Below are positions 24,958 to 51,734 of a stretch of 64,000 bases of DNA, one piece after another. This DNA comes from Abyssibacter profundi (GTDB lineage: Bacteria > Pseudomonadota > Gammaproteobacteria > Nevskiales > OUC007). The notes under the pieces are model-generated. The model ran no database searches. It saw only the letters and a program-made list of their open reading frames with translations, and was not told the origin of the DNA. Numbering within the stretch: position 1 is the stretch's first letter; each line of letters begins with the position of its first letter. The DNA is taken from positions 62,334 to 126,333 of the forward strand of contig NZ_QEQK01000006.1 of the NCBI RefSeq assembly GCF_003151135.1. Direction: 5' to 3'. A program made the translations under genes and the position numbers.

Positions 24958-24959
24958 CC

Positions 24960-25847: not shown

Positions 25848-25893
25848 GCCGGGCAGGACTGGGCGGGCAGGTTGGGCGTAGCGGGGTCGGGGT

Positions 25894-33252: not shown

Positions 33253-33293
33253 TCCCGGCCAAGTCAATTCAACGCAAGTCAAGGAGTCGATGC

Positions 33294-33599
33294 GTGAGCG
33301 AAGAAGCACCAACCAACCCCGAAGGGGGCGCCAGCGTGGATGGCGTCAAGATCAACTGGGATGACAGCAGCATTGTCAGCACCTACGCCAACATCGCGAC
33401 GGCGACGGCCACCCGCGAGGAGTTCTTTCTGCTGTTCGGGCTGCATCAGAATTGGAAAGGCATGCCTCAGGACGGCGAACTGGACGTGACGTTGACGCAC
33501 CGGATGGTGCTCAACCCACACGCGGCCAAACGGCTGGCCGCGGTACTCGCGCGCTCGATTCAAGTCTACGAAGACCGCTTTGGTGCCATCCAGACCTGA
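33294..33599 (+). CDS. DUF3467 small protein
   Basis: 101 residues from GTG 33294 with AAGGAG at 33281-33286. DUF3467 features are visible: YANIATATATREEFFLLFG, then LTHRMVLNPHAAKRLAAVLARSIQVYEDRFG, the conserved strand-helix ending in Y-E-x-x-F-G. Cytoplasmic by composition. The function of DUF3467 is unknown; here it lies between a giant exported protein and its presumed adaptors, so a chaperone-like role is possible. It overlaps the next gene by 20 bp if that gene starts at GTG 33580. Confidence 0.8.
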   Translation: MSEEAPTNPEGGASVDGVKINWDDSSIVSTYANIATATATREEFFLLFGLHQNWKGMPQDGELDVTLTHRMVLNPHAAKRLAAVLARSIQVYEDRFGAIQT

Positions 33600-35292
33600 A
33601 CCCGCACCAGCGCTGCCTGCTGATGAGCTGCCGGACTCCGGCGCAGCGGGGCCGGCGCGCATGGATGATGCGTTCGTGGCGTTGTTTGGCAGCACGGCAG
33701 AAGGCCGCTACCAGCCGATTCTCGGTCTGCAATCCGCGGCGGTTATTGCCGCGGTTGACGGCCTGGCGGGGCGTGAGAGCAAGGCGCGCCCGGAGCTGAT
33801 CGAATCCGGGGCGTTCTGGCTGCTTCGGGTCTCCGCACTGGGCGCTTTGTCGCATGTCTGGGTACTGCGACCCGCCGGCACCGCCGCTGGAAAGATCGCC
33901 TTGATCCGACGCTACACCGAGGCTAGTCGGCGGCTTGCTGCTGGGTCCCTGCCAACCGCACAAGTGCCACCCGTGGAATCGTCGGCAGACTCGCGAGCTG
34001 GCAGCGGGCGGGCGGTGATGGATCGTCTGCGCGCGGTGATGCGGCAGACGCCGGGGCGGCCCCGCGCCTGGCTGGGTGAGATGCGGCTGACGCTTGGGCG
34101 TGAGACCGGCTGGCCCGGCGTCGGCCTGCTGCAGCTCCGGGGCGACCGGGTGCTGTGGTGCGAGCTCACGGCCGAGAATACCGGCAAGCTCCAGGACAGC
34201 CTGCACGTGTTCGTCGCGCAGCTCGTGGCTCAGGGCCAGCGATGCCTGCGATCCAGCCAGACCTGGGGGGATGAGCCGTCGGAACTCGACAAGCGGTTGC
34301 TGCTGGAGGAGCACGGCCTGTCGGGTTTCTCCTTGTTCCTCCCCGCGGGGTCTGGGGTGGCCTTGTTTGTCGCCGCGGATGTGGACGAGGCCACAGGTCT
34401 GGAGCTGGTCGATTTGCTCAGCCTCAGGGCGGCCCCGCGCGCATCGCTGGTCGGTCGCCTGCGGTCGCGTCGCGGCCTGGCTGGCGTCCTCGCAGTTCTC
34501 GGCCTTGTATTGCTTTGGCCGATACCGATGGAAGTGGGGGCGCCTGCGACGCTGGTGCCGGCGGACTCGCAGGTGATTGTTGCGACGCAGGCCGGCAAGC
34601 TGGCAGCGCTACACGTTGGTGTCGGTGATCAGGTGCGGGCCGGTGATGTGTTGGCTCGCATGACCGCACCCGAACTCATCGAGGCCGATTTGCAGGCCTC
34701 GCTGGATGCGATGCTGCAGTCGCTCAATGCCAAGGAAGCGCTGTCACGTGGTGATTACGGGGAATATCGGATCCTGCAGCAACGTGAGGCCGTGTCCGCC
34801 CTGCAGGTCGAGCAGGGGCAACGCCGGCTTCAGGAACTCGAGATTCGAGCGCCCGCGGATGGACGCATTGCCGATGTGTTGACGCCTGATCAGCTCGGCG
34901 CCCTGAAATCGGTGGGCGACTTCGTGGCTGAACTGCAATTCGGGTCCGACATGCATGTCCTCATCGACCTCGGTGCAGCAGACGCGGCGCAGGTCGAGCC
35001 CGGCATGTCGGGGGATCTCGTGGTCCGGGGCGTGATCGGGCAGGCGTTTCCGATTCGCGTTCTGACGCACCCGGTGGCGCGTAGCCAGCCTGATGGGCAG
35101 TCGATCACACAGCTGCTGGCAGCGGTCGAACGACCGGGGCCGTCAGCCCCAGGCGATGACTTGCTGTTCAAGGGCTTGACCGGCTTCGCGCGGCTAGATG
35201 GTCCACGACGGCCGCGCATCTATGTCTGGACCCGACCGGCGATCGAATACCTGCAACTGGCCGCATGGAAGTACCTCGGACTGCCCCTTTAG
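33580..35292 (+). CDS. HlyD-family adaptor with a large N-terminal cytoplasmic-type domain
   Basis: 570 residues from GTG 33580, or 543 from ATG 33661. Residues 1-295 form a globular domain, possibly GAF-like, with AFWLLRVSALGALSHVWVLRP and VLWCELTAENTGKLQDSLHVFVAQL. One membrane segment (about 300-320) is followed by lipoyl halves (VIVATQAGKLAALHVGVGDQVRAGDVLARM and LEIRAPADGRIADVL) and a beta barrel ending near FARLDG. The large N-terminal part would be cytoplasmic and could recognise the substrate or an ATPase. Overlaps the M50 gene by 28 bp. Confidence 0.75.
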   Translation: MVPSRPEPAPALPADELPDSGAAGPARMDDAFVALFGSTAEGRYQPILGLQSAAVIAAVDGLAGRESKARPELIESGAFWLLRVSALGALSHVWVLRPAGTAAGKIALIRRYTEASRRLAAGSLPTAQVPPVESSADSRAGSGRAVMDRLRAVMRQTPGRPRAWLGEMRLTLGRETGWPGVGLLQLRGDRVLWCELTAENTGKLQDSLHVFVAQLVAQGQRCLRSSQTWGDEPSELDKRLLLEEHGLSGFSLFLPAGSGVALFVAADVDEATGLELVDLLSLRAAPRASLVGRLRSRRGLAGVLAVLGLVLLWPIPMEVGAPATLVPADSQVIVATQAGKLAALHVGVGDQVRAGDVLARMTAPELIEADLQASLDAMLQSLNAKEALSRGDYGEYRILQQREAVSALQVEQGQRRLQELEIRAPADGRIADVLTPDQLGALKSVGDFVAELQFGSDMHVLIDLGAADAAQVEPGMSGDLVVRGVIGQAFPIRVLTHPVARSQPDGQSITQLLAAVERPGPSAPGDDLLFKGLTGFARLDGPRRPRIYVWTRPAIEYLQLAAWKYLGLPL

Positions 35293-37223
35293 CCGAGGCC
35301 ACGCTTCGCTTGTCGCCGGAGGCCCGGCGGCATCGCTACCTGTTGTGGGACCCGGCAGCCGATCAGGCCATGGATATGCCGCCGCGTCAGGCCGAGCAAT
35401 TCCTGCTGGCACGCGATGCTCTGCAATCGGGGCAACGACCGCAGGCGCTGGACACAGCAGCGGTCGGGTCGATGCTGACGCAAATCGATGCCGCAAGGAC
35501 GGCCGCACACAAACGTCGCCGGCCTCGATTCAATCCCTTGTTCTTCAGCTTGCCGTTGCTGCAGGTCGCCCCGTATCAGCCTCGGTTGCGACGGATCGCC
35601 GCGCTGGCCTATGGATGGCCGGGGGCGCTGATGCTGGCTGGCCTGATGCTGCTCTGCGGCGTCATGGCCACCCAGTCCCAGTTCGCGCTGACCGGCAGTT
35701 TGGATCAGGTGTTTTCGGTGGATGCGTTGCTGGCGTTTTCGCTGCTGGCGCCGGTGCTCAAATTGTTCCATGAGCTGGGTCATGTGCTGGCGGCCACGCG
35801 CTTCGGGGTGCGGGTCGGTCGGGCGGGCATGATGTTCGTGGCGCTGTATCCGCTACCGTTTGTGGACTGTTCCCGCGCCGATCTCACAGCCACCCGGACA
35901 CAGCGCATCATCATCAGTCTGGGCGGACTGCTGGCCGACGTCACCATCGGGCTCTGTGCCTTTGTGGCCTGGCACCTGACAGACAGTCCCTGGCAGAAGC
36001 AGCTGTTTGGTCATGTCTTCCTGTTCAACACGCTGTCAACGCTGCTGTTCAATCTCAACCCTTTGATGAAGCTGGACGGCTACTTCGCCCTCAGCGATGG
36101 CTTGTACCGGCGCAACTTTCACGCCCAGAGCAGCGTGGCGTTGTCCCGGCTGATGAGCACGCTGGGGCGGGGGGAGTTCAGGGCCGCACAGGTCCTGGCC
36201 ATCACTCGATGGCCACAACTGCTGTTTGCCGTGGCAGCCCTGATCTACAAGGTCTATATCCTTGCCTTCATCACTTGGATGCTGCTGCCACGGTATTACG
36301 GCCTGGGTGCATTGGCCGTGGGCTGGGGGGCGGTGCTGATGTTTGTGATCCCGCGGCTGGCCGGGGCGTCAAAGCCATCGCAGGGTGCTGGCACCGGGCG
36401 GGCGTGGCTGCGTCGGCGCTGGCCATGGCTGATCCTCGCGCTGTTTGGCCTGCTGTGCCTGCCGTTGCCGCATCGGCTGACGCTCCCCGTCAGTCTGGAC
36501 GTGCAGGGGGCTTATGCCGTCAGGGCCCAGGAGGCGGGTGTGCTCACGCGTTTGTCACCACCTGGGCCGGTCGAGGCGGGCAGCCTGTTGGCGCTGCTGC
36601 GGAATCCTGAGCTGGATCGCGCCGTGACGCTGGCCCAACAAGAGGTGCAGGTCAGCGAGGCCGCGATGGACGCAACGCGCGGCGGCGAGCCCGTGGCGGC
36701 GCAGGCGGCCAGCGAGCGACGGCGCGCTGCCCGTGACATTGCAGCGGTGGTGGCGGCCAAACGTGAGGCGCTATCCGTATCAGCCGCACGGGCGGGTGAG
36801 TTCATGCCCGACCCGTCGCTACGCCCTGGCGACTGGCAGAACCCGGGTGACCGCCTGGGCAGTCTGCTGCCGACCGGGCCCTCGGCCGCCCTGGTTGGGC
36901 ATTTCCCTGAGTCGTATGCCCAGCGCTTTCGTTCGGGCGATTATCGTCTGTCATTGCGGCTGCCAGGCCGCCATCGGGTGTTGGATGAAGACCTCACGGC
37001 CTCGCTGAGCCGTGTCGAAGACCGTGGCATGCAGGCAGGGCGTCAGCTGCGTATCGACGTGGTGGCCGGGCTGCGTCCCCAGCAGATTCGCGCGGGTATG
37101 GGGCATCTCAAAATTCGCTTTGCGAGCGAACCGGTCTGGCGACATCTGGTCTTTCATGCCCGGCGCTTGCGGCTGCAATACTTCCAGGCCCGGGCTTTGG
37201 CCCAGTCACCCCGGGGCGAGTGA
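35265..37223 (+). CDS. M50 (site-2) intramembrane metalloprotease fused to a HlyD-like adaptor module
   Basis: 652 residues. The membrane core has about seven segments. Zinc motif HELGH is at residues 169-173 and the third ligand Asp271 is in NPLMKLDGYFAL. A final membrane segment (about 388-408) precedes an adaptor-like region with a lipoyl half (VQGAYAVRAQEAGVLTRLSPPGPVEAGSLLAL), a helical hairpin and beta strands. COG1994-like peptide metalloproteases have this plan. All metal ligands are present, so it should be active: it may cut the LEPR region of the substrate or serve as the inner-membrane platform (inference). Confidence 0.85.
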   Translation: MEVPRTAPLAEATLRLSPEARRHRYLLWDPAADQAMDMPPRQAEQFLLARDALQSGQRPQALDTAAVGSMLTQIDAARTAAHKRRRPRFNPLFFSLPLLQVAPYQPRLRRIAALAYGWPGALMLAGLMLLCGVMATQSQFALTGSLDQVFSVDALLAFSLLAPVLKLFHELGHVLAATRFGVRVGRAGMMFVALYPLPFVDCSRADLTATRTQRIIISLGGLLADVTIGLCAFVAWHLTDSPWQKQLFGHVFLFNTLSTLLFNLNPLMKLDGYFALSDGLYRRNFHAQSSVALSRLMSTLGRGEFRAAQVLAITRWPQLLFAVAALIYKVYILAFITWMLLPRYYGLGALAVGWGAVLMFVIPRLAGASKPSQGAGTGRAWLRRRWPWLILALFGLLCLPLPHRLTLPVSLDVQGAYAVRAQEAGVLTRLSPPGPVEAGSLLALLRNPELDRAVTLAQQEVQVSEAAMDATRGGEPVAAQAASERRRAARDIAAVVAAKREALSVSAARAGEFMPDPSLRPGDWQNPGDRLGSLLPTGPSAALVGHFPESYAQRFRSGDYRLSLRLPGRHRVLDEDLTASLSRVEDRGMQAGRQLRIDVVAGLRPQQIRAGMGHLKIRFASEPVWRHLVFHARRLRLQYFQARALAQSPRGE

Positions 37224-38769: not shown

Positions 38770-40302
38770 ATGGTTGATTGCATGCGGGTGACGGCCGGAA
38801 GCCGTTGGCTAATGGGGGTTTGTGTACTGGGGCTGACATCGGTGGTCTCCGCGCAGGAGTACCACTACTGGACCAACCAGTTCGGGACACGCTCGGCATT
38901 GATGGGTGGTGCCATGGTGGCCGGAGTCCGGGACACCAGCGCCACGTACTACAACCCGGCCGGGCTGGCCTACGTGCCCGACCTGACCCTGTCGATCAAC
39001 GCCGATGCCTACCAGGTGCGCTCCATCAGCATCGAAGACGGTGCCGAGACGGGGCGGCCTCTGGAATCCTCGCAGCCTGGCTCGGTACCCCTGCTGCTCA
39101 GCGGGACAGTCCTGTTCAATGACGTGAAGCTGGGCTACAGCGTGCTCGCCCGTCAGTCGGGCGGGTCACAAATGTCCGAGCGGCTGCAGTTCTCCCAGGA
39201 TTTACTTTATGGCGGCCGTACGGTGGACATGCCGGGCGGGAACAGCCAACCAGCGTTTGGCGAGCAATCCAGCGGCCAGCTGGAAGACTACCGCGGCCAG
39301 ATGAGCTACAGCAGCAACCTCAGCGAGTACTGGGCCGGCCTGTCTTACGGGACCCTGCTATCGGATCGCTGGTCTGTCGGCGCCACGGCCTATGCGGCCT
39401 ACCGCAGTCAGTCGTCACTCATCGCCCAGACCGCCCGGGCGGCCAACCAGGTGACCCATGTGGCCGCCACGCAGGCCTACAACCGAGCGGTGGAATTCCA
39501 GAATTTGCGAGCGCTGCTCAAGCTGGGCGTTGCGGCTGACTGGGAATGGATTAAGGCGGGCCTGACGCTGACCACGCCCAGTGTGTCCCTGTCGGGCAGT
39601 GGGTCCAGCTCGCTGGTGTTCTCGGACATCAACAATCCCATCCAGGCCAACAATGGTGATCAGCTGCTCGACGGCCGCCAGGACAACCTGGACGCCGAAT
39701 ACGAGAACCCGATGTCCGTTGCCTTTGGCCTCGAGTTTCTGCTGGGCCAGACGCGCCTTGCGTTGGCCGCAGAATGGTTTGACAAGGTTGATCCCTACAC
39801 GGTGGTCGATGCCCGTTCCGAGAACCTGGTGCTGGGCAATGCCAATACACCGGTCGATGCCGACGAGGTTCTGGAGGTTCGTGACAGAGCCCGTAGCGTG
39901 ACCAACTTCGCCATTGGCATCGAACAACGCGTCAGCAATCGATACACCCTCTACGTAAGTGCGCGCACGGATAAATCGGCCTTCGACCGGGCGCCGAATG
40001 ACCCCAGCCTGTTCCTGAACAATAACAACTACGACATGGGCATCACGACCTGGGACAACAACAACATCACCGTCGGGTTCTCGCGCACATCCGAAAAATC
40101 CCTGTTGTCGGTTGGCTTGTCCTACACCTTTGCCAATGAATCCGACTACCAGCGGTTTTCCAGCGTCCGGCCCTTTAACCAGGGCGGATCCAGCTCGTCG
40201 TTCTTCCTCGTGCCGACACCCGGTGAGTTTGGAGGGGACGAGACCGATGTGAGTGCAAGCACCGTCAGCTTTCTGATCGGTTGGACGTACTTCGTCAAAT
40301 AA
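38770..40302 (+). CDS. OmpP1/FadL family outer membrane transporter
   Basis: 510 residues with a signal peptide (GVCVLGLTSVVSA-QEY). The FadL signature SATYYNPAGLAYV is near the N-terminus after GTRSALMGGAMVAGVRDT. Alternating beta strands follow, with a final aromatic-ended strand TVSFLIGWTYFVK, as needed for outer membrane insertion. FadL proteins carry long-chain fatty acids and other hydrophobic molecules into the cell. It precedes the Calx-beta giant by 74 bp and may be co-transcribed. Consistent with alkane/lipid use encoded further right. Confidence 0.85.
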   Translation: MVDCMRVTAGSRWLMGVCVLGLTSVVSAQEYHYWTNQFGTRSALMGGAMVAGVRDTSATYYNPAGLAYVPDLTLSINADAYQVRSISIEDGAETGRPLESSQPGSVPLLLSGTVLFNDVKLGYSVLARQSGGSQMSERLQFSQDLLYGGRTVDMPGGNSQPAFGEQSSGQLEDYRGQMSYSSNLSEYWAGLSYGTLLSDRWSVGATAYAAYRSQSSLIAQTARAANQVTHVAATQAYNRAVEFQNLRALLKLGVAADWEWIKAGLTLTTPSVSLSGSGSSSLVFSDINNPIQANNGDQLLDGRQDNLDAEYENPMSVAFGLEFLLGQTRLALAAEWFDKVDPYTVVDARSENLVLGNANTPVDADEVLEVRDRARSVTNFAIGIEQRVSNRYTLYVSARTDKSAFDRAPNDPSLFLNNNNYDMGITTWDNNNITVGFSRTSEKSLLSVGLSYTFANESDYQRFSSVRPFNQGGSSSSFFLVPTPGEFGGDETDVSASTVSFLIGWTYFVK

Positions 40303-40376
40303 CAGCTTTTGGCCGTCGCAGCACGATGCGACGCAGCATGGGGGCGGTCGTTGAGGCCGCCTGGGAGGAGCGGGAT

Positions 40377-43300
40377 ATGCGTCAGGATCAAGTACAACCT
40401 CAACCGGGTCACAGGTCTTCGGGCAAACATTGGCTGCAGCGACTGGCGCTGACCGCGCTGATGGTGCCCTGTCTGGTCATCGGTGGTGACGAACTGGCGC
40501 GCCAGTACATCGTGTTCCAGTACCAGGCCAACGATGCCGCCATCGGCGGTGAACAGACCGCCCCGGCCGTGGCGACCGCGGGCGGGCTGCAGTCGATCGG
40601 GTCCAACGCCGATGGCAGCACGCGGGTCGATCCGCTGGTGACCGTGACGGTCTGGGAAAGTCCCAACCAGGATGGCGATACCGACGGCGACCGGAACATC
40701 TACGGCTTGCTGCGCATCACCGATGCGGTGACGGCAAACCCCATCGAGTACAGCGATGGGGACACGACCTTCCCGGGCTGGACGCATCAGGAGATTCGAT
40801 TCGCCGTCAACTCCGATGGGGCCGGCGATCAGTCGGAGCCGCGCGTGGCGATCACGGCCTCTGATGGCAGCTTTCCCCAGACTTATCAGGTCCTCGTCAC
40901 CTGGACGGACTCGGGATCAGGTGTGCCCGTGGTCAAGGGCCGATTGTTCGCGTTCCAGTCCGATGATGCGAGCACGCTTGCGCCGCTGGACGGGCAGGGT
41001 GAGTTCACGGTGTTCCCGGGTACGTTCACGACCACACGTGCGTCGGACGTCGCGTTTGATACCACGGCCGATCCCATTCGGCGTTTTCTGGTGTCTGCCA
41101 TCTTCACGGCTGACGCAGGCACCGACCGCGGACTTATCGTCCGGCAGATCGCCGCCGATGACGCTGCAGGCACGGGCAATGTCATCACGCTCGTGGCCAC
41201 AGAAAGCGCGGGAGCACCTGTTCACCCGCTGACGCAGCGCCTGGCAGCCGGGCGCAATGTGTTCGGGCTTGTGTGGGATTTTGATGATGGTGCCGGCCGC
41301 CGGGATGTGCGTTGGCAACTCTTTGGTGCAGATGGCAGCGAGTATCTGGCCGCGCAGCGGGTCTCTCAGGTCGATGGCGGTGAATCCTATGCACGACCAG
41401 ATATCGCCCTGGGGGATATCTGCCCGGACGACGCGTTGGATGATTGCGCGGATAGTTTAGACAGTTCCGAGTCTTCGACGTCACTTAGTCCTGATCACGT
41501 TCTTCTGGTGATGGAGCCGAACCACTATCAGCTCATCCCGAACGAGAACGGGATGACTGGTCCAGCGAGCTACACACTTCCTGATAACTTGCAGACGATC
41601 GATTCCAGCGTAGCGTCGGTGAGCGGGCCGCAGGTCGTGACCGTTGGCAGGGCTGAGCGTGAAGGAGCGCAATCTAACACCGCGGGTAACTTCGGAAACT
41701 CCGCTGTGGACAACTATCCTCCCAAAGGTGAGGACTTCACGTTGACTTGGGTGCGAAGTAGTGCGCTGCCCGGGGTCGAGAGCGAGGTCATGGGGCGCCG
41801 TATCAGCCAATCGGATGACGTGACATTGACGGCGATCGGCCCGCTCCCTGCCGAACACAATGCCGCCCAGAATGTTGCTGTTGCGGGTTTCCCGTTTTCG
41901 CTCGTTGTGCGGGAGTACTGCTCAGATTTCGGCCAGGTTGATGGGCCGGATGATGGGACCTATTACTTCACCTACTGCCGTTCCCAGTTCATGGACTACG
42001 CCCTGGCATGGCAGGCATCCGGGCCAAATGACGATGGCGACATCTTTGTATCCCTGGTCGGGGATCCCGGTGGTGTCGATCTTGATCTAAGCGTTTACGA
42101 CGGGCCTGCAGAGGCCGAGGAAAATGAGGCGGGCCTCGCATTTACAGCCACGGTCAAGAACGCAAACAACCTGCCGGCGGGGCCCGGTTTTACCGTCAGA
42201 TTCCAGACCCCTTTCTCGGGCTTTACACGCACCGATTTTAATCGCTGGGCCTGTAATGCGGAGTCAGGCAGCGAGACCAATCGCGTCTGTACATACATCG
42301 GTAACCAGTTGAATCCCGGCTTCGAGATCCAGCTAAATTACGTAGCTACGGCGCCGGGCAGTGGCGGTGAGCTGAGCTCGATAGCAACGGTTCACGCCGA
42401 CGAAGGCGGGCAGGTCTACGATGGAACGGGGAGTTCCATGCCCTCTGAAGGCGGCTTTGGTGGGGTGGGCGACAATCCGGGCGAGGAGAAGAACCCGGAT
42501 ACAACTCGACAGAGCAAGACCGTCGAGACCAGCGTGAACAGCACCCCACCGGTCGTCTCCCTCCCGGAAACCACCAGCGAGGTTCTGGAAGACGCCGGCA
42601 CGCTGACCGTCACGGTGGCGCTGGATAAAAACGCCGAGGATGAGGTGTCGATCCCCTACAGCCTGTCGGGGACGGCGACCGCCGGCGACGATTATTCCAA
42701 CTTCACTGCATCGCCCATCGTCATTGCGGCCGGCAGTCGCGAGGCCACGATTCAGGGAACGGTGGTCGATGACTCGCTGGATGAGGGCCGTGAGACAGTG
42801 GTCATCACCCTGGGCACGCCCACCAATGCAACCCTGGGTGCGAATGACACACACACGCTCACGATCCAGGACGATGATCCGCTACCCACGCTGAGTGTTG
42901 CGGATGTCACGGTGACCGAAGGCGATGCCGACACCGTGAATGCGGTATTCACCGTCTCGCTGTCGGCGGCTTCGGGCCGTGCGGTGACGGTGGCATATGC
43001 CACCAGCGATGGCAGTGCGCGCACCGCGGATGGTGATTACCAGGCCCGCAGCGGGACGCTGAGCTTTGCGGCCGGCGAGACGACGAAAACGGTCACGGTG
43101 CCGGTCCAGGGGGACACCCGGGACGAGGCCGACGAAACCTTCGAACTGGGGCTGAGCGATCCGTCCAATGCGACGGTGACCACCAACTCGGCCACGGGCA
43201 CCATCACCGACGATGATCCGTTACCGGCGCTGTCGATTGCGGATGCAAGTCAGGCTGAGGGCGACAGCGGTACACGCGACCTGCAGTTCAGCGTTCAGCT

Positions 43301-46300
43301 GTCAGCGGCCAGCGGCCGAGACATCACGGTGGCCTATGCCACTTCCGATGGCACCGCCACGACCGCAGACTCGGATTACAACGCGGCCAGCGGAACCCTG
43401 ACCTTCGCCGCCGGAGAAACGCAGAAAACCATCGAAGTCTCGATTGTCGGAGACACGCGCAACGAGGCCGATGAGACCTTCGAGGTCACACTGAGCAACC
43501 CGGCGCAGGCGACATTGGATCAGGCCACCGCCACCGGCACGATTCAGAACGACGAGGGCTTGCCGACGTTGAGCGTGGCCGATGTCAGCGTGGCCGAGGG
43601 TCATAGCGGGACGACGGCCATGACATTCACGGTGGAACTGTCTGCCGTGAGCGGTCAGACGGTGACGGCCGATTATGCAACGGTGGAGGGCACGGCCACG
43701 GATGGAGATTTCGTGGCTGCGACGGGACAGATCACCATCCCGGCAGGCCAGTCTACGGCCAGTATCGAGATTAGCGTGCAGGGCGACCGCCTGGACGAGG
43801 CCGACGAGACATTCGATCTGGTACTCAGTAATCCGGGTAACGCGGCACTGGAGGATGGACGGGCCACGGGCACCATCGTGGATGACGATGCGACGCCGAG
43901 CCTGGCCATCGCAGCTGCTACGGTGACGGAAGGCAATAGCGGGCAGCAGACGCTAACGCTGGCGGTCACGCTGTCTGCGGCCAGCGGTCGCACGGTGACG
44001 GTTCGTTATACGACGCGGGATGGCTCGGCCACCACGGCAGACGGTGACTATCAGGCGCGCAGCGGACAGCTGAGCTTTGCGCCGTCTGAAACCAGCCAGT
44101 CGATTCAGGTCGCCGTCAACGGCGACACCCGCCACGAGCCGGACGAGCAGTTCTCCGTTCGTCTCAGCGAGGCCACGAATGCCACCATTCAGACCGCGAC
44201 GGCCAATGGCACCATTACCAATGACGACGCCGTGCCGGAGTTGCGTGTAGGCAACGCACAGGTCGAAGAGGGCAACAGCGGCACCGCCACGCTGAACTTC
44301 ACCGTGAGCCTGTCGGCTGCCAGTGGGCAGGCCGTGTCCATGCAGTTCGCGACGCGCGACGATTCGGCGACGACTGGTGATTCCGACTACTCGGCGGCCA
44401 GCGGCTCTCTGACGATTCCTGCAGGCGAGACGAGTCGTCGCGTGGCCGTCACGGTTGCCGGCGATACGCGCAACGAGGCCGATGAAACCCTGCAGCTGGT
44501 GATCAGCGAGGCGCAGAACGCACAAATCGTCGATGCAACAGGCGTCGGGACCATCGTCAATGACGACCCGCTGCCGGCACTGCGAATCGAGGATCGTTCA
44601 ATCGCTGAGGGTGATTCGGGGACCTCACGTCTGGTGTTCCCCGTCAGCCTCTCGGCCGCCAGCGGACGCATGGTCACGGTGAGTTACCAGACCGCCGATG
44701 GCACGGCCACGACGGCAGATGGTGACTACGTGGCCGCCAGCGGTTCTGTGGCTTTTGCACCCGGCGAGACGGCCAAGACCATCGAGGTGCAGATTTCGGG
44801 TGACACCGTGCGTGAGGAGGATGAATCCTTCTCGGTTACGCTGTCTTCTCCGGCCAATGCCAGTCTGGAGCGGGCGGCTGCCGCAGGCACCATCGTCAAC
44901 GACGAAGGCGTGCCCACTGTGACGGTCGCAGACGTGGAGATCGCCGAAGGTGACAGCGGACTGAGCCCAGTGGTGTTTGAGGTTCGCCTGTCGGCGGAAA
45001 GCGCCAGCGCAGTCACGCTGGACTTTGCGACCCGTGACGGGTCGGCGACGACCGTCGACAACGACTACGAGAGCAGCTCAGGCACGTTGACGTTCGCTCC
45101 GGGCGAGACGGCCAAGTCGGTCACCGTGAACGTGCGTGGCGATGCGCTGGATGAGGCCGACGAGCAATTCCAGCTGCAGCTGAGCAATGCCAGCGGTGCG
45201 GCCATTGGTGATTCTTCGGCGACCGCGACCATTACGGATGATGATCCCCTGCCTGCGCTGAGCATCGCCGATGTCACCTATGGCGAAGGCAATAGCGGGA
45301 GTCGTGTGGTGGAGATGACCATCAGCCTGTCCCGTACCAGCGGGCGCGATGTCTCACTGAGCTGGGCCAGTCGCGATGGGACGGCCACGACGGCGGACGG
45401 CGATTACCAGGCCGGTTCCGGCAGTCTGACCATTCCGGCCGGTTCGGCGAGTGCCACCATTGGCCTGCAGCTAGGGGGTGATACCCGGCACGAGGCCGAT
45501 GAACACCTGACGGTGACGCTCAGCAACCCAACCCATGCCACCCTGGCCGATGACACCGGGCGGTTGACCATTCGCAACGATGACGCGGCCCCTGCGCTGA
45601 GCGTGAGCGATGTGTCGGTCACCGAAGGAAATAGCGGTGATCGAAATGCCGCGTTTGTGGTCCGGCTCAGCGCGGCCAGTGGGCGCACCGCCAGCGTGCG
45701 ATTCGCCACTGCAGACGGTTCAGCCACCGCCAGTTCAGGTGACTATGTGGCACGGTCCGGCACGCTGACCTTCCAGGCCGGCGAAACCGAAAAAACCGTA
45801 GGTGTCACGGTGCGCGGGGATACGCGGGACGAACCCAACGAGACCTTTACCCTGGCCTTGAGCCAGCCCAGCGGTGCCAGTCTCGGTACGTCGACCGCCA
45901 CGGGCACCATCCGTGATGACGATGCCGCGCCTAGTCTGAGCGCCACCGGCGCATCGGTCTCGGAGGGTCATTCGGGCACGTCCTCACTGGTCTTCCAGCT
46001 GGACCTGTCGGCAGCCAGCGGCAAGACGGTTGCCGTGTCTGTGGCGACGGCCGATGGCTCGGCCTCGCAGGCCGCAGGTGACTACGAATCCGTGGCCACT
46101 CGCGTGAGCTTTGCGCCAGGCGAGACGCGCAAGCAGGTCGCGGTTCCGGTTCGGGGCGATCGGCTCAACGAGTCGGATGAGACGCTGGCATTGACCCTGG
46201 GCTCGGCGAGCAATGCCACATTGGCCACCACGTCGGTAACCGGCACGATCGTCAACGATGACCCCCTGCCAGCGCTGTCGATTGGCGACACCACCTTGGC

Positions 46301-47063
46301 GGAAGGAGACAGCGGCAATACGCAGGCCCAGTTCACGGTCCAGCTGTCTGCTGCCAGCGGCCGCGAGGTTCAGGTCAGCTACCAGACCAGTGACGACAGC
46401 GCGTCTGCCAGTGCCGGCGACTACGTCAGCAGCAGCGGCACGCTGGCACTGGCACCCGGCGAAACCTCAGCCACGGTGACGGTGCCGGTCAGTGGCGATT
46501 TGCTGGATGAGGCTGATGAGCGCTTTGTCGTCACCTTGAGTGCGCCGGTTCGGGCGACCTTGGCGGACGCCGAGGCGGTGGGACTGATTGAGGATGATGA
46601 CCGGATGCCAGAGCTGTCCATCGCATCGGCCGGCGTTCTGGAAGGTGATAGCGGCACGGTTAGCCTGCAGTTCGATGTAAGCCTTTCCGCGCCGAGCGGC
46701 CGCGCAGTCTCGGTTCGCTACGCCACTGCGGATGGAACAGCGACCACAGCTGACGGGGACTACGACGCCACCAGTGGCCAGCTCAATTTTGCGGCGGGTC
46801 AGACCATACGATCGATTTCGGTCACGGTGCGCGGGGACACGAATGTTGAGGCCGATGAGCAGTTCACCGTGGTACTGACGGATCCCGTCAACGCCGTCCT
46901 CGAGACCGCCAGCGCGACGGGTGGGATTGGCAACGACGATGAGGCCGGCGGTGGCGGTGGTTCGGGCAGCCTGGGTCTGTTGTGGCTCTGGGGCTGCCTG
47001 CTGGCCGGCTGGATGCGCCGCCGAGCCCTGGCCGAGCTGGGGAGGTCCCGACAGCCGGGCTGA
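40377..47063 (+). CDS. Giant Calx-beta repeat protein with GlyGly-CTERM anchor
   Basis: 2228 residues from ATG 40377 (GGAGGAGC upstream). N-terminal membrane segment or signal (LQRLALTALMVPCLVIGG), a mixed beta N-terminal domain of about 700 residues, then 13 Calx-beta repeats of about 113 residues, each with EGDSGT-type loop, DGSATTADGDY and ETFEVTLSNP motifs binding calcium. The C-terminus is GGGGGSGSLGLLWLWGCLLAGWMRRR, the GlyGly-CTERM sorting signal cut by rhombosortase. It would be a calcium-stiffened surface or adhesin protein. It is followed after 2 bp by the cyclase gene. Confidence 0.85.
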   Translation: MRQDQVQPQPGHRSSGKHWLQRLALTALMVPCLVIGGDELARQYIVFQYQANDAAIGGEQTAPAVATAGGLQSIGSNADGSTRVDPLVTVTVWESPNQDGDTDGDRNIYGLLRITDAVTANPIEYSDGDTTFPGWTHQEIRFAVNSDGAGDQSEPRVAITASDGSFPQTYQVLVTWTDSGSGVPVVKGRLFAFQSDDASTLAPLDGQGEFTVFPGTFTTTRASDVAFDTTADPIRRFLVSAIFTADAGTDRGLIVRQIAADDAAGTGNVITLVATESAGAPVHPLTQRLAAGRNVFGLVWDFDDGAGRRDVRWQLFGADGSEYLAAQRVSQVDGGESYARPDIALGDICPDDALDDCADSLDSSESSTSLSPDHVLLVMEPNHYQLIPNENGMTGPASYTLPDNLQTIDSSVASVSGPQVVTVGRAEREGAQSNTAGNFGNSAVDNYPPKGEDFTLTWVRSSALPGVESEVMGRRISQSDDVTLTAIGPLPAEHNAAQNVAVAGFPFSLVVREYCSDFGQVDGPDDGTYYFTYCRSQFMDYALAWQASGPNDDGDIFVSLVGDPGGVDLDLSVYDGPAEAEENEAGLAFTATVKNANNLPAGPGFTVRFQTPFSGFTRTDFNRWACNAESGSETNRVCTYIGNQLNPGFEIQLNYVATAPGSGGELSSIATVHADEGGQVYDGTGSSMPSEGGFGGVGDNPGEEKNPDTTRQSKTVETSVNSTPPVVSLPETTSEVLEDAGTLTVTVALDKNAEDEVSIPYSLSGTATAGDDYSNFTASPIVIAAGSREATIQGTVVDDSLDEGRETVVITLGTPTNATLGANDTHTLTIQDDDPLPTLSVADVTVTEGDADTVNAVFTVSLSAASGRAVTVAYATSDGSARTADGDYQARSGTLSFAAGETTKTVTVPVQGDTRDEADETFELGLSDPSNATVTTNSATGTITDDDPLPALSIADASQAEGDSGTRDLQFSVQLSAASGRDITVAYATSDGTATTADSDYNAASGTLTFAAGETQKTIEVSIVGDTRNEADETFEVTLSNPAQATLDQATATGTIQNDEGLPTLSVADVSVAEGHSGTTAMTFTVELSAVSGQTVTADYATVEGTATDGDFVAATGQITIPAGQSTASIEISVQGDRLDEADETFDLVLSNPGNAALEDGRATGTIVDDDATPSLAIAAATVTEGNSGQQTLTLAVTLSAASGRTVTVRYTTRDGSATTADGDYQARSGQLSFAPSETSQSIQVAVNGDTRHEPDEQFSVRLSEATNATIQTATANGTITNDDAVPELRVGNAQVEEGNSGTATLNFTVSLSAASGQAVSMQFATRDDSATTGDSDYSAASGSLTIPAGETSRRVAVTVAGDTRNEADETLQLVISEAQNAQIVDATGVGTIVNDDPLPALRIEDRSIAEGDSGTSRLVFPVSLSAASGRMVTVSYQTADGTATTADGDYVAASGSVAFAPGETAKTIEVQISGDTVREEDESFSVTLSSPANASLERAAAAGTIVNDEGVPTVTVADVEIAEGDSGLSPVVFEVRLSAESASAVTLDFATRDGSATTVDNDYESSSGTLTFAPGETAKSVTVNVRGDALDEADEQFQLQLSNASGAAIGDSSATATITDDDPLPALSIADVTYGEGNSGSRVVEMTISLSRTSGRDVSLSWASRDGTATTADGDYQAGSGSLTIPAGSASATIGLQLGGDTRHEADEHLTVTLSNPTHATLADDTGRLTIRNDDAAPALSVSDVSVTEGNSGDRNAAFVVRLSAASGRTASVRFATADGSATASSGDYVARSGTLTFQAGETEKTVGVTVRGDTRDEPNETFTLALSQPSGASLGTSTATGTIRDDDAAPSLSATGASVSEGHSGTSSLVFQLDLSAASGKTVAVSVATADGSASQAAGDYESVATRVSFAPGETRKQVAVPVRGDRLNESDETLALTLGSASNATLATTSVTGTIVNDDPLPALSIGDTTLAEGDSGNTQAQFTVQLSAASGREVQVSYQTSDDSASASAGDYVSSSGTLALAPGETSATVTVPVSGDLLDEADERFVVTLSAPVRATLADAEAVGLIEDDDRMPELSIASAGVLEGDSGTVSLQFDVSLSAPSGRAVSVRYATADGTATTADGDYDATSGQLNFAAGQTIRSISVTVRGDTNVEADEQFTVVLTDPVNAVLETASATGGIGNDDEAGGGGGSGSLGLLWLWGCLLAGWMRRRALAELGRSRQPG
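42552..46943 (+). repeat. Thirteen tandem Calx-beta repeats (protein level)
   Basis: Unit length about 338 bp (112-113 residues). Each starts with LSIADVxVxEGDSG and ends with TGTIxDDDPLP. DNA copies have clearly diverged, but the junction DDDPLP is almost invariant. The first unit is the most divergent. Confidence 0.9.
46944..47063 (+). other. GlyGly-CTERM sorting signal
   Basis: Five consecutive Gly then SGS, a hydrophobic stretch of about 16 residues and an Arg cluster. This is the tripartite GlyGly-CTERM arrangement processed by rhombosortase. No rhombosortase gene is in the window. Confidence 0.75.
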
Positions 47064-47065
47064 CC

Positions 47066-48901
47066 ATGAACTGGGTACAGTCCCGGCGGGTCTGGCTTGT
47101 CGCCGCCTTGCTGCTAATCGGCCTGGAGTTCCATGTGCTGGGGCTGGGGCGGGGGATGGATCAGCGCTTGTCGGATCAGCTGACGCGCCACGCTGCCTAT
47201 CAGCACCCGGCGGATCCGGACATCGTATTGGTGACCATCGACGATGCATCGCTGAACCGGCTTGCCCCGGTGCTGGGACGGTTCCCCTGGCCGAGGGGGG
47301 TGTACGCGGAACTCATCGAATTGTTGAGTCAGTTCGACCCCAAGGCCATCGTGCTGGATGTGTTGCTGACCGAGCCCGACGCGTTGCGGCCCGCGCAGGA
47401 CCGGGCGCTGGCCCAGACCTTGGCGGGCTGCCCATCGTGTTACCTGCCGTTGTTGTTGCTACGCAACGAACGGGAGCAGGTGGCCGCGGGGTTCGATCTG
47501 GCATCACTGGCGCCGCAGCTTGGTTTGGAGGCTGCAGGTGCTCAGGCGAGCCATCCGCCCATGTTGCTGCCGGTGCGGGAGTTGATCCAGCCCGGGCAGG
47601 TGGGTGCGGTCAACGTGCCGTTGGACCCGGATGGTCTGCTACGGCAGTACCGACGGCGCTGGCGAGCAGGGGCTTGGTGGGTGCCCTCGTTGCCCTGGCA
47701 GGTGGTCAAGAATTGGCGACCTGCAACGGGTTCGGCGGCACCCGCAGATGATCTTGTGCGCCTGCGTTGGAGCGCTGGGACGCCGGGCTGGTCCAGCTAT
47801 GGCTTTGCCACCGTCTATGAGGGGCTGATCAATGGGCAGGATGCGTGGTCATCCCGCCTGACGGACAAACTCATTATCGTCGGTGCCACCGCATCCGGGT
47901 TGAATGATTTTCATCACACGCCTCTGGGGCATCACACCCCGGGTATGGACGTGCTGGCCACGGCAGCGCGTGGATGGTGGCGGGATGATTTCTATCGCTC
48001 GCTGGACGCGCCGATGCTCTGGGGTCTGAAGTGGGCTCTGGTGCTCGGCGCGCTTGCCTGCGTCATGCTCGCTCGCCGCTGGCTGGTCAGCGTGTTGCTC
48101 ACCGCTGGCCTGATGATGGTGACCCTCATCGTCATGCGCCAGGCTTTCGTCGGTGGCTGGTATCTACCGCTAGGTCACGCGGTGTTGATTGGTCTGAGCG
48201 TGCTGATCATCGATCTGATTCGCCGTTACCTGGTGACGCGACAGCAACGCCAGGCGATTCGTCAGCATTTCGGCCGCTTCGTGCACCCCGAGGTTGTCAG
48301 TCAGCTCATGGGGATGCCCGATGTCCGGGCCGATGCCCGGGTTGGCCGGAGGGTGCCGGTCACCGTCATGTTCTCGGATATTCGCGGGTTTACGACCTTT
48401 TCGGAAACCCGCTCGGCGCAGGTGGTCTTCAATGCCCTGAACGGCTATTTGGAACGCCAGACTGCGGTGATTCTTCGCCACGGTGGGACCATCGACAAGT
48501 TCATTGGTGACGGCATCATGGCGTTTTGGGGGGCTCCGCTAGCTGACGCGCATCAATGTGAGGCCGCGGTGGCTGCGGCCTGCGAAATGCTCGCCGAGGC
48601 CGAGCGGTTTTCGCAGGAATGGGCCGAGGAGTTGGGGGAGCCTTTCCGCATCGGCGTGGGTCTGCACCAGGGCGAGGCCATCGTCGGGTTTCTGGGGTCT
48701 GCAGACCGGCTGGATTACACGGCGATTGGCGATGTGGTCAATCTAGCCAGCCGGATCGAGGGACTGACCAAGGGGCTGGCACCGGTGTTGGTCTCCGATA
48801 CCGTGCGCAAACAGTGCGACGCCAAGCGCCGCTTCACGCCCATGGGGGCGCATACGGTCAAGGGGCGGGCCGAAGCGGTGGAACTCTATGCGCCGAACTG
48901 A
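47066..48901 (+). CDS. CHASE2-domain adenylate/guanylate cyclase
   Basis: 611 residues from ATG 47066. An N-terminal membrane anchor, a periplasmic CHASE2 sensor (about 35-315; DIVLVTIDDASLNRL and RLTDKLIIVGATASGLNDFHHTPLG are typical), three membrane segments (about 325-390), and a class III cyclase (VTVMFSDIRGFTTFSE, FIGDGIMAFWGAP, DYTAIGDVVNLASRIE). Metal Asp residues and substrate residues are present, so it should make cAMP. It is immediately downstream of the Calx-beta giant and followed by SH3b and M48 genes, suggesting envelope-linked signalling. Confidence 0.9.
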   Translation: MNWVQSRRVWLVAALLLIGLEFHVLGLGRGMDQRLSDQLTRHAAYQHPADPDIVLVTIDDASLNRLAPVLGRFPWPRGVYAELIELLSQFDPKAIVLDVLLTEPDALRPAQDRALAQTLAGCPSCYLPLLLLRNEREQVAAGFDLASLAPQLGLEAAGAQASHPPMLLPVRELIQPGQVGAVNVPLDPDGLLRQYRRRWRAGAWWVPSLPWQVVKNWRPATGSAAPADDLVRLRWSAGTPGWSSYGFATVYEGLINGQDAWSSRLTDKLIIVGATASGLNDFHHTPLGHHTPGMDVLATAARGWWRDDFYRSLDAPMLWGLKWALVLGALACVMLARRWLVSVLLTAGLMMVTLIVMRQAFVGGWYLPLGHAVLIGLSVLIIDLIRRYLVTRQQRQAIRQHFGRFVHPEVVSQLMGMPDVRADARVGRRVPVTVMFSDIRGFTTFSETRSAQVVFNALNGYLERQTAVILRHGGTIDKFIGDGIMAFWGAPLADAHQCEAAVAAACEMLAEAERFSQEWAEELGEPFRIGVGLHQGEAIVGFLGSADRLDYTAIGDVVNLASRIEGLTKGLAPVLVSDTVRKQCDAKRRFTPMGAHTVKGRAEAVELYAPN

Positions 48902-48922
48902 CCAGCAGGGGGGAGGAACGTG

Positions 48923-49399
48923 ATGCGACGACTTGGAATTTTGCTCATGCTGACCGCGGCGAGTTCGCTTCCCGCGCTCGCCGGAGAGGGGCGAATCATC
49001 CAGCCGGATGTGCTGCGGTCTGACCCAGGCTTCCGGGCGGAGCGACTGGGGACCGTGCCCATTGGCACGGTGGTCGAGATTCTCGAACAGGATGGCAATT
49101 GGGTGCAGGTGACGCTGCCCCAGCCCGCGACGGGCACGACGGCGGTGACCGGCTGGGTACGGTTGCTCAATGTCCACGTCTTCGAGCAAGACGATCACCT
49201 GAATGTCGTGTCCGATAGCGCGTATGGGGCCGACTCCGAGTTAACGGTGGCGACCGCGGTGCGCGGGATCGACGTGGAACGGATCGGCCGTGCAAATGCC
49301 GACTACAACGCGTTGGCGGCGGTATCGGGCTATGCGGCTTCCGATGAGGACGCCAGACGGTTTGCTGCAGACGGAGGCCTGACCCATGAACCGAAGTAA
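48923..49399 (+). CDS. Secreted SH3b-domain protein
   Basis: 158 residues from ATG 48923 (GTG 48920 also possible; GGGGGAGG ribosome binding site). Signal peptide ILLMLTAASSLPALA, then an SH3b-type domain (VLRSDPGFRAERLGTVPIGTVVEILEQDGNWVQVTL...GWVRLLNV), usual for periplasmic wall or protein binding. The C-terminus is helical and charged. Its last codons overlap the M48 gene start by 14 bp. Likely a partner of the metalloprotease. Confidence 0.8.
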   Translation: MRRLGILLMLTAASSLPALAGEGRIIQPDVLRSDPGFRAERLGTVPIGTVVEILEQDGNWVQVTLPQPATGTTAVTGWVRLLNVHVFEQDDHLNVVSDSAYGADSELTVATAVRGIDVERIGRANADYNALAAVSGYAASDEDARRFAADGGLTHEPK

Positions 49400-50315
49400 C
49401 CTGTGGCTGCTCCGGGTCGTTTCAGTGGTCGCCGGTCGCCTATTGCCCCTGGTGCTGGTGTTCTTGACTGCTTGTGCCGGTCAGCATTTTGATCCGGATT
49501 CGCGCCTGGGCGCGGCGGCTACGGCACTGGGTTTGAGCGATGACGTGGATGAATCCCGGGAAATTGAACTGGGCGAGCGGGCAGCGGCCCATTTGTTAGG
49601 CGCTTACCCGCCGGTCGAGGATAGCCGGCGTCAGCGCTACATCAACCTGGTGGGCCGCTGGGTGGCGCAGCAGTCCCAGCGTCCAGCCTTGCCCTGGCGC
49701 TTTGCGTTGATTGATGACCCCGCCATTAATGCACTGGCGGTGCCGGGTGGCATTGTGCTGCTATCCAGCGGGTTGTGGGACCTGCTCGAAACCGAAGCCG
49801 AACTGGCTGCGGTACTGGCTCATGAGATCGCCCATATCGAACAACAGCATCACATGCGAGCGCTGGTTCATCAGGGCGTGTGGGGGCGCTTGCTTAGCCA
49901 CAAGTTGGAGTTTGCCAACCGCTCGGGTGAGCGGGTCGTGATTACCTCGTCCGGACTGTACAAGCTACTGGCCACCAAACTGACACGGGAGGACGAACTG
50001 GCATCCGATCTCCGTGCCCACGCGCTGCTCGAGTCGGCCGGGTATGACAGCCACGCGCTGTCCAGCGTGTTGCGACGCATGGCCGAGGTCAACACCACAG
50101 ACGAAGGCCGGCTCAGCTATCTACTGAGCACCCATCCGCCCATGTCAGACCGGCTGGAAAGCCTGCAGACAGATGCGCCGCATCAGGGTGACGCCGGGAC
50201 TCAGGGACGCGATCGCTTCCTGGCGATTGCTCAGGGTCGGACGACCTTCGACGCGCAAGAGGCGGAGGAATCCGGCCCCGATCTCATCCCTACATTGTTG
50301 GACTTGTATTTCTAG
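49386..50315 (+). CDS. M48 family metalloprotease lipoprotein
   Basis: 309 residues. Lipoprotein signal with lipobox LTAC at about residues 27-30. Zinc motif HEIAH at 146-150, third ligand Glu204 in REDELASDLRA; PGGIVLLSSGLWDLLETEAELAAVLAHE is the conserved lead-in. BepA/LoiP-type proteases control outer membrane protein quality. No C-terminal TPR is present. With CHASE2 cyclase and SH3b genes, it closes the operon behind the Calx-beta giant. Confidence 0.9.
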   Translation: MNRSNLWLLRVVSVVAGRLLPLVLVFLTACAGQHFDPDSRLGAAATALGLSDDVDESREIELGERAAAHLLGAYPPVEDSRRQRYINLVGRWVAQQSQRPALPWRFALIDDPAINALAVPGGIVLLSSGLWDLLETEAELAAVLAHEIAHIEQQHHMRALVHQGVWGRLLSHKLEFANRSGERVVITSSGLYKLLATKLTREDELASDLRAHALLESAGYDSHALSSVLRRMAEVNTTDEGRLSYLLSTHPPMSDRLESLQTDAPHQGDAGTQGRDRFLAIAQGRTTFDAQEAEESGPDLIPTLLDLYF

Positions 50316-50385
50316 CGAAGCGCCAATCTATTCGCACCGCCGAGACGGCGCCGGTTTTCCCGCGAGCCCAGGCAGAGTGAGTGCC

Positions 50386-50689
50386 GCTTGGTTATTCCAA
50401 ATCAGCGCACGACACGAATGCGTCGGGAACGTATTCGGACGGCCGCAGGCCGGCCCGAAGGGCGAAGCGCATGGACGCGCTTCGCAACGCAGGATCGCGG
50501 GAAAATCGGCCCGTTCCGTCTGGATTGCGCCTGCAAACAGGCCAGACTGCGTTAGTCGGCGCATCCATGCGCCTCCCCCGGTGGGCCCGCCTTCGGCGGT
50601 TTCAATTCGCTCCCGGCGAATGGGTGCTCGTCGTTCATTTGGAATGACCAAACTTCGCTCCTCGCGCCTTGCCTGGCCTGTTTGCAGGC
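50386..50689. repeat. MITE-like palindromic intergenic element
   Basis: Ends GCTTGGTTATTCCAAAT (50386-50402) and ATTTGGAATGACCAAAC (50637-50653) are inverted repeats matching at 15 of 17 bases; similarity continues inward for about 45 bp. Inside are several hairpins: CGAAGCGC...GCGCTTCG, GGCGCATCCATGCGCC (50558-50573) and CCGCCTTCGGCGG. A second inverted pair, 17 bp perfect, is at 50529-50545 and 50673-50689, partly outside the ends. No transposase. It fills the gap between the M48 gene and the AraC gene. Confidence 0.65.
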
Positions 50690-50723
50690 AGCAACTGGGC
50701 GGTGCGAATCAATCAGCGCTTTC

Positions 50724-51734
50724 CTAACGGCCGCCTTGTTGCCGGAGCTGGGTCGGGCTGCGTTCAAACCAGCGCCGGCAGTTGCGACACAGCACGGTCT
50801 GGTCGGCCAGCCCGAGCTGGCCGGCGACCTGTACCAGGGGTTCATCGGTCTCGGTGAGCCATTGCAGCGCCTGCTCCCTGCGAACGCTGTCCAGGATGTC
50901 CTGATAGCGCTGGCCTTCCGCGGCCAGTCGGCGCTGCAGCGTACGGGGGTGGATGTCCAGCAAACGTGCAATCACGTCGCGGCGGCCCAGGCTGGTGGAC
51001 AGCGTCCGCCTGAGCACCGACTCCACCTGTTCGGTCAGGGTTTGCTGATCGGGGTGAAATGCCAGCTGCAGGTACTCCAGGCTCAGGCGCTGAAGCTCTT
51101 CGGACGCCCCCTGCAGCGTGGTATCGAGAAAATGATCGGGCAGGATCAGCTCGGCATGCGGCTCCTCGAACGTGAGGGCCGGGCCGAACACCTGGGCGTA
51201 GCGACTGGCTGGGGCGGCCGGCGGGTGCGGCATGTGGACCTGCACCAGGGGAACCGGCGCCTGCGCCAGCCACTGAATAAAGTGCAGCAAGTCGGCCACG
51301 CACTGCTCCATGACCTGACGGTGCGGCAGCCAGGAAGGTGCGACCAGCAACAGACGCAGCGCGATCATCCCGGCCTTCGGTACGCCGGGATGCATGCTCA
51401 GGCGAATGGCGGGGCTGTGGGTATGCATATAGCCCAGGCAGATTCGCAAGGCATCGCCCATGGTGTTGGCGTTCTGCATCGCAATGGCCAGCGGTCCCAG
51501 AATGCCGATGTCCTGGCGCTCGGCCATACGCAGGCCCAGGTCAGGGCAATCAGCCGCCCCGGCCACATGCTCAAGCAGCTGGGCATAGGCGACCAGCGAG
51601 ATGCGCAGATCATCGTCGTCCAGCGCGGTCAGCGGAATCCCGAAGCGTTGCATCAGCGGCTCGACCGGCTGCTTCAGTTCCACGAGCAGCTCGGCGAGGC
51701 CGCGCATGCCGGCGGCTCTGAACAGGGTCGACAT
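50724..51734 (-). CDS. AraC-family regulator with Arabinose_bd-type sensor domain
   Basis: 336 residues from ATG 51734. The N-terminal half is the PF12625 sensor (RGLAELLVELKQPVEPLMQRFGIPLTAL); the C-terminal half is a HTH_18 domain with RRDVIARLLDIHPRTLQRRLAAEGQRYQDI and a second helix-turn-helix. Regulators of this type govern fatty-acid, alkane or sterol use. Divergent from the AlmA-type gene with 107 bp between starts, so it likely controls it. A TTGACA lies close upstream on this strand, giving a very short leader if used. Confidence 0.85.
   Translation of the reverse strand: MSTLFRAAGMRGLAELLVELKQPVEPLMQRFGIPLTALDDDDLRISLVAYAQLLEHVAGAADCPDLGLRMAERQDIGILGPLAIAMQNANTMGDALRICLGYMHTHSPAIRLSMHPGVPKAGMIALRLLLVAPSWLPHRQVMEQCVADLLHFIQWLAQAPVPLVQVHMPHPPAAPASRYAQVFGPALTFEEPHAELILPDHFLDTTLQGASEELQRLSLEYLQLAFHPDQQTLTEQVESVLRRTLSTSLGRRDVIARLLDIHPRTLQRRLAAEGQRYQDILDSVRREQALQWLTETDEPLVQVAGQLGLADQTVLCRNCRRWFERSPTQLRQQGGR

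Follow-up and report, generated by a model that had tools for sequence, protein, structure and literature searches.

A CHASE2 adenylate cyclase, an SH3b protein and an M48 protease recur as ordered neighbours and probably form an envelope system, found behind a giant Calx-beta protein in Abyssibacter profundi

Introduction

To our knowledge, little has been established about what CHASE2 sensor domains detect, and for most M48 proteases of the periplasm no route to their substrates has been described. The HPx4R active-site plug is conserved throughout the M48 family; this plug must move for function, and BepA meets its substrates via a TPR domain (PMC7950410). The M48 protein studied here resembles BepA, LoiP and YcaL of E. 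coli, being exported and having an M48 domain with HExxH, the zinc Glu and the HPx4R plug, but it differs from BepA in having no TPR; instead, the gene just before it encodes a protein of SH3b or Sel1/TPR type that bears a conserved tail, and a CHASE2 cyclase often accompanies the pair. In S. meliloti, the CHASE2 cyclases CyaD1, CyaD2 and CyaK act in signalling jointly with NsrA, a beta-barrel of the outer membrane (PMC7529298, PMC13001267). Compared by description, the pairing of CHASE2 adenylate cyclases with an outer-membrane beta-barrel is a likeness to the present locus, whereas NsrA is much larger and the available parts of the two accounts mention no SH3b or M48 partner (PMC7529298, PMC13001267).

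Two further described systems resemble the locus in part. The giant protein encoded in front of the cyclase has, by eye, the three-part C-terminus of the GlyGly-CTERM/rhombosortase system and the genome encodes a rhombosortase, but this tail scores below the curated model, and the known system includes no cyclase or M48 protease. The cyclase domain matches the PycC models of Pycsar, which reflects the general class III fold; unlike Pycsar, the cyclase has a CHASE2 receptor, and no neighbouring Pycsar effector was identified. Text searches of a literature library returned no paper describing the CHASE2 cyclase, SH3b and M48 families together. The trio is probably the real envelope system at this locus, and one that is apparently undescribed so far.

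Results

Organization of the locus

The window (the whole stretch of 64,000 nucleotides that was analysed) carries an outer-membrane protein (OMP) gene, the giant gene and the trio in a single same-strand run, 38770-50315:

38770..40302, + strand: FadL/PorV-like outer-membrane protein (510 aa), from NCBIfam PorV_fam, blastp and a profile
40377..47063, + strand: Calx-beta giant of 2228 aa with 13 repeats, each ~113 aa, and a C-terminus probably of GlyGly-CTERM type
47066..48901, + strand: 611-aa protein with CHASE2, TM segments and a class III adenylate cyclase domain, from Pfam CHASE2 and Guanylate_cyc
48923..49399, + strand: exported SH3b protein (158 aa), from Pfam SH3_3 and an alignment of 32 orthologs
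49238..49396, + strand: tail of the SH3b protein, TAVRGId...YAaSdedArrFAadggL, matched alone on proteins preceding M48
49386..50315, + strand: M48 metalloprotease lipoprotein (309 aa), from Pfam M48, with HEIAH, E204 and HPx4R

The close packing of the last four genes described in the sequence-only reading was reproduced, with gaps of 2 bp between giant and cyclase and 21 bp between cyclase and SH3b gene and an overlap of 14 bp (-14) between the SH3b and M48 genes, and its domain calls (Calx-beta, CHASE2 plus cyclase, SH3b, M48) were all matched. It had overlooked the FadL/PorV-like OMP gene, which ends 74 bp before the giant. The giant is read from an ATG at 40377, preceded at 7 nt by GGAGGA, to a stop at 47063; ATG is also the start codon of the cyclase (47066), SH3b (48923) and M48 (49386) genes. 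Scans for promoters and terminators gave one promoter-like and nine terminator-like sites, not above shuffled sequences.

The module is followed directly by a dispersed repeat of ~405 bp (50320-50726), an imperfect palindrome with the look of a MITE-type element, which has the M48 gene on one side and an AraC-type gene on the other; further copies in the genome share 91% identity with it over 400 bp (L209) and 86-96% identity (L259). Further downstream on the same strand, 57942-59144 encodes a 400-aa FG-GAP repeat protein. Another giant, the first in the window (25894-33252), has 'MEPRILLDA' near its start and RTX-like repeats, and its surroundings (23467-37223), with an outer-membrane efflux protein, HlyD-like proteins and an M50-type membrane protein, form a type I secretion-like cluster.

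The trio is conserved in order across genomes

Relatives were gathered with the cyclase query alone and their neighbourhoods were inspected afterwards; the searches sampled mainly one class, and the gene caller was home-made, so that gene starts in other loci are approximate. The order CHASE2-SH3b-M48 was found in ~47 other genomes, mostly of one proteobacterial class, with further cases in other Pseudomonadota, Nitrospirota and Planctomycetota. Both the order and the tight spacing were kept in the loci recovered at order level (10), class level (18 more) and phylum level (6). All 10 full-length cyclase orthologs in the order had SH3b and M48 directly downstream. Both partners were adjacent in 23 of the best 30 cyclase matches of the class search (369 genomes), and a 24th had the SH3b gene at a contig end; at phylum level the best new matches carried SH3b and M48 in six cases of six. 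The trio also occurs in MAGs of two Sphingomonadales (Sphingomonas, Croceibacterium), of Nitrospira and of another proteobacterial lineage, and more weakly in Planctomycetota. Neither SH3b nor M48 was found in the flanks of 18 other CHASE2 cyclases (L016-L033) or of the two other CHASE2 proteins of the same genome. Same-order adjacency in dozens of genomes is far beyond chance, and the earlier suggestion that cyclase, SH3b protein and M48 protease belong together is borne out.

The gene upstream of the trio varies, being bioB in seven genomes, nagZ-hpt in three, rapA in one and ridA or thioesterase-like in others (names read from the sequences), and it often lies only 0-27 bp from the cyclase (e.g. 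bioB, hpt, ridA). Because unrelated genes are equally close elsewhere, tight upstream spacing is no sign of a functional link.

An unannotated tail accompanies the M48 protease

The constant pair is SH3b plus M48. Searched reciprocally in 262 genomes, the SH3b family gave 28 matches uninterrupted by a contig end. M48 lay directly downstream of every one of them, and 17 were outside the profile. CHASE2 stood in front of SH3b-M48 in 16 of these 28 and was not adjacent in 11, while one case gave no clear call; because of the 11 pairs without neighbouring CHASE2, the tie to the cyclase may be looser. In one genome (G322), SH3b, M48 and OMP genes lie together on a contig from which the cyclase is absent.

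The SH3b protein has a bacterial SH3 domain (Pfam SH3_3, 38 bits) and is exported by prediction; its AlphaFold model (pLDDT 41) was too poor for use. Its C-terminal tail, at about residues 106-158, is conserved in the alignment of 32 orthologs, and none of the Pfam or NCBIfam families matching the window protein covers these ~60 residues. The tail is separable from the SH3 domain: in three genomes (G328, G216, G282) the tail part of the family profile (positions 105-166) was the only part matched, each time in a gene directly before M48, and the carriers are Sel1/TPR (by Pfam in G328) or other non-SH3 proteins. On this sequence evidence, the element that accompanies M48 is the unannotated ~60-residue tail.

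The M48 protein itself (Peptidase_M48, 105 bits) has a lipobox, HEIAH at 146-150, E204 and an HPx4R plug at H250-R256. Its nearest solved structures are 3c37 and BepA (6sar/6ait), but it scores 93 bits against the BepA model, for which the cut-off is 570, and Pfam finds no TPR in its 309 residues.

The cyclase and the question of cAMP

CHASE2 (Pfam, 144 bits) and a class III Guanylate_cyc domain (74 bits) are joined with TM segments in a single chain. The motifs FSDIRGF, DKFIGD and GDVVNLASR, which hold the class III residues for metal, adenine specification and the transition state, are intact, and the catalytic residues D438, K478, D482, D556, N559 and R563 are present, from which we infer that the enzyme uses ATP rather than GTP. 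The genome has 16 cNMP-binding matches, several of them candidate CRP-type regulators for cAMP. The cyclase matched PADLOC PycC models (best 124 bits) and it alone matched Pycsar, the SH3b, M48 and OMP proteins having no PADLOC model match; its AlphaFold model (pLDDT 49.5) was too poor for use. The tree nests it among the module cyclases with an SH-aLRT support of 99, its own branch being long (1.58), and a full-length ortholog is absent from the three nearest genomes, of the same genus and family.

In two genomes (G392 and G484), CHASE2 occurs without the cyclase domain and SH3b plus M48 still follow. Thus the association does not depend on cAMP: an intact cyclase is usual in the trio, but these two genomes have none and 11 SH3b-M48 genomes have no adjacent CHASE2. 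Given the cyclase-less CHASE2 variants and an SH3b gene that always precedes M48, the weight moves from cAMP to the protease.

The trio clade holds further variants. Its CHASE2 proteins without a cyclase domain are L161/L233 (G392), L190/L234 (G484), L157 and L158, of which two retain SH3b plus M48 and two do not; the C-terminal region replacing the cyclase had no Pfam family match in the three proteins tested. L137 (in G091), a CHASE2 cyclase that also falls in this clade, has degenerate catalytic motifs (QAQLYRAP for SDIRGF) and no adjacent SH3b or M48. By eye, another CHASE2 cyclase subfamily (L125 in G000 C8, L127, L128) adjoins gspD/E/F-like genes in several genomes, in some with a clpB-like gene further along, and a CHASE2 protein in L126 (G000 C3) apparently ends in a Ser/Thr kinase and is followed by PP2C-like and FHA-like genes.

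An outer-membrane protein accompanies part of the family

In a second subfamily, with cyclases of 700-740 aa, the gene after M48 encodes a FadL/PorV-like OMP, and the two genes mostly overlap, by 11-20 bp. The strict OMP family was found in 13 of 368 other genomes of the class; all 13 carry a cyclase of the module kind, and their OMP gene comes immediately after M48. The window OMP matches NCBIfam PorV_fam (E 1e-6) and, by blastp, the OMPs of nine other module loci (E 1e-5 to 1e-13); a profile built from those nine, excluding the window, gave it 74.7 bits (E 1.5e-21), while non-seed members scored >500 bits. It is a distant relative and is placed upstream, but is likely equivalent to the module OMPs elsewhere. 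A reading of the PorV match as type IX secretion was dropped, the protein being of the FadL/PorV-like kind encoded after M48 at other loci.

The giant is not a constant partner

The giant has 13 Calx-beta stretches (638 bits, 113-residue period), preceded by an exported-looking N-terminus and a 700-residue region without Pfam matches. Its C-terminal tail, GGGGGSGSLGLLWLWGCLLAGWMRRR, was judged by eye to have the three-part GlyGly-CTERM form; TIGR03501 reports nothing on it and NF038115 gives 13 bits only. The proposed GlyGly-CTERM anchor is plausible, and the genome has a true rhombosortase (137.5 bits, cut-off 84).

The N-terminal 738 residues have no relative in the 99 related genomes searched. 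Hence the expectation that all four genes would be neighbours in related genomes failed for the giant, and the trio is independent of it. The genome has a second Calx-beta giant (2282 aa; contig 1, L260 3848-10696) with a clearer GlyGly-CTERM tail and no trio alongside. The absence from 99 genomes, the other loci and the trio-less second giant rule out the giant as a constant partner. Since the trio recurs elsewhere without it, its N-terminal half has no relatives and the second giant stands alone, the giant is, from these comparisons, probably a lineage-specific passenger of the module and probably just co-expressed with it.

Discussion

We hold, with no better than middling confidence, that 47066-50315 is a copy of a conserved envelope module consisting of an exported adaptor and an M48 protease, often with a CHASE2 cAMP sensor. 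Its core would be the adaptor, made of SH3b and the ~60-residue tail, plus the M48 zinc protease encoded just behind. A BepA-type M48 kept closed by its HPx4R plug would need a targeting part; BepA has a TPR on the same chain, and here the adaptor would probably supply that part in trans, which is the simplest reading because the M48 lacks TPR and a separate tail-bearing exported protein is always encoded before it. We infer that the tail docks on M48 and that the SH3b part, elsewhere Sel1/TPR, finds the target. The inner-membrane CHASE2 cyclase, directly in front in most copies, is probably co-transcribed, and its CHASE2 part would probably read the state of adaptor and protease, or of their periplasmic target, into cAMP, much as the S. 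meliloti CHASE2 cyclases answer to events at the outer membrane. In copies that retain the cyclase domain, the cAMP would most likely go to CRP-type regulators. Some copies would add the FadL/PorV-like barrel, and in this genome the module would have come to sit behind a lineage-specific giant. The window copy may have drifted, given its cyclase's long branch and its distant, upstream OMP. A more ambitious form of this proposal, a new and widespread envelope-stress pathway in which an M48 protease works with a trans adaptor through an M48-docking tail and its activity is reported as cAMP by the CHASE2 cyclase, is put forward tentatively.

Alternatively, SH3b-M48 may be a plain outer-membrane quality-control unit, with CHASE2 as a separate sensor that shares an envelope regulon, is for that reason often co-transcribed, and has no physical coupling to it. 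We regard this as unlikely. The 11 pairs without adjoining CHASE2 and the resemblance of the M48 to BepA speak for it, but shared regulation by itself hardly accounts for adjacency kept across many contexts and in the two cyclase-less CHASE2 variants. Rather improbable is a history in which this lineage turned the giant into a fresh client or ligand of an old module, making OMP, giant and trio one surface system. The same-strand run of these genes would fit such a history, and rhombosortase is over-represented with the trio in the 369-genome class sample (17/23 trio genomes versus 110/346 others, Fisher p 1e-4; 9/9 OMP-trio genomes), but the statistic ignores phylogeny and the co-occurrence is confounded by it despite its significance; moreover, the window OMP is merely a distant relative, and the sole other module locus with a neighbouring giant, in a Sphingomonas MAG (L036), has an RTX M10-type protein 266 bp upstream. 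The sequence-only proposal that the cyclase senses the giant's assembly or calcium state and signals by cAMP while M48 clears failed giants is very improbable, for although the 2-bp gap makes translational coupling likely and the giant is a surface protein with a probable rhombosortase tail in a rhombosortase-encoding genome, ~47 genomes have the trio without such a giant, 99 relatives lack its N-terminus, the genome's other Calx-beta giant with a GlyGly tail stands without a trio, housekeeping genes such as bioB, hpt and ridA stand equally close before the trio elsewhere, and nothing found bears on calcium.

For the adaptor-protease module, then, the novelty is the module and its tail, not the giant. 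The association of cyclase, SH3b protein and M48 protease is much wider than is visible from the window sequence alone. Docking of the tail on M48, if it occurs, would give a role to a domain that has had none assigned. The conserved association of CHASE2 cyclase, M48 protease and small adaptor offers a concrete, testable partner for both questions, what CHASE2 domains sense and how periplasmic M48 proteases reach their substrates.
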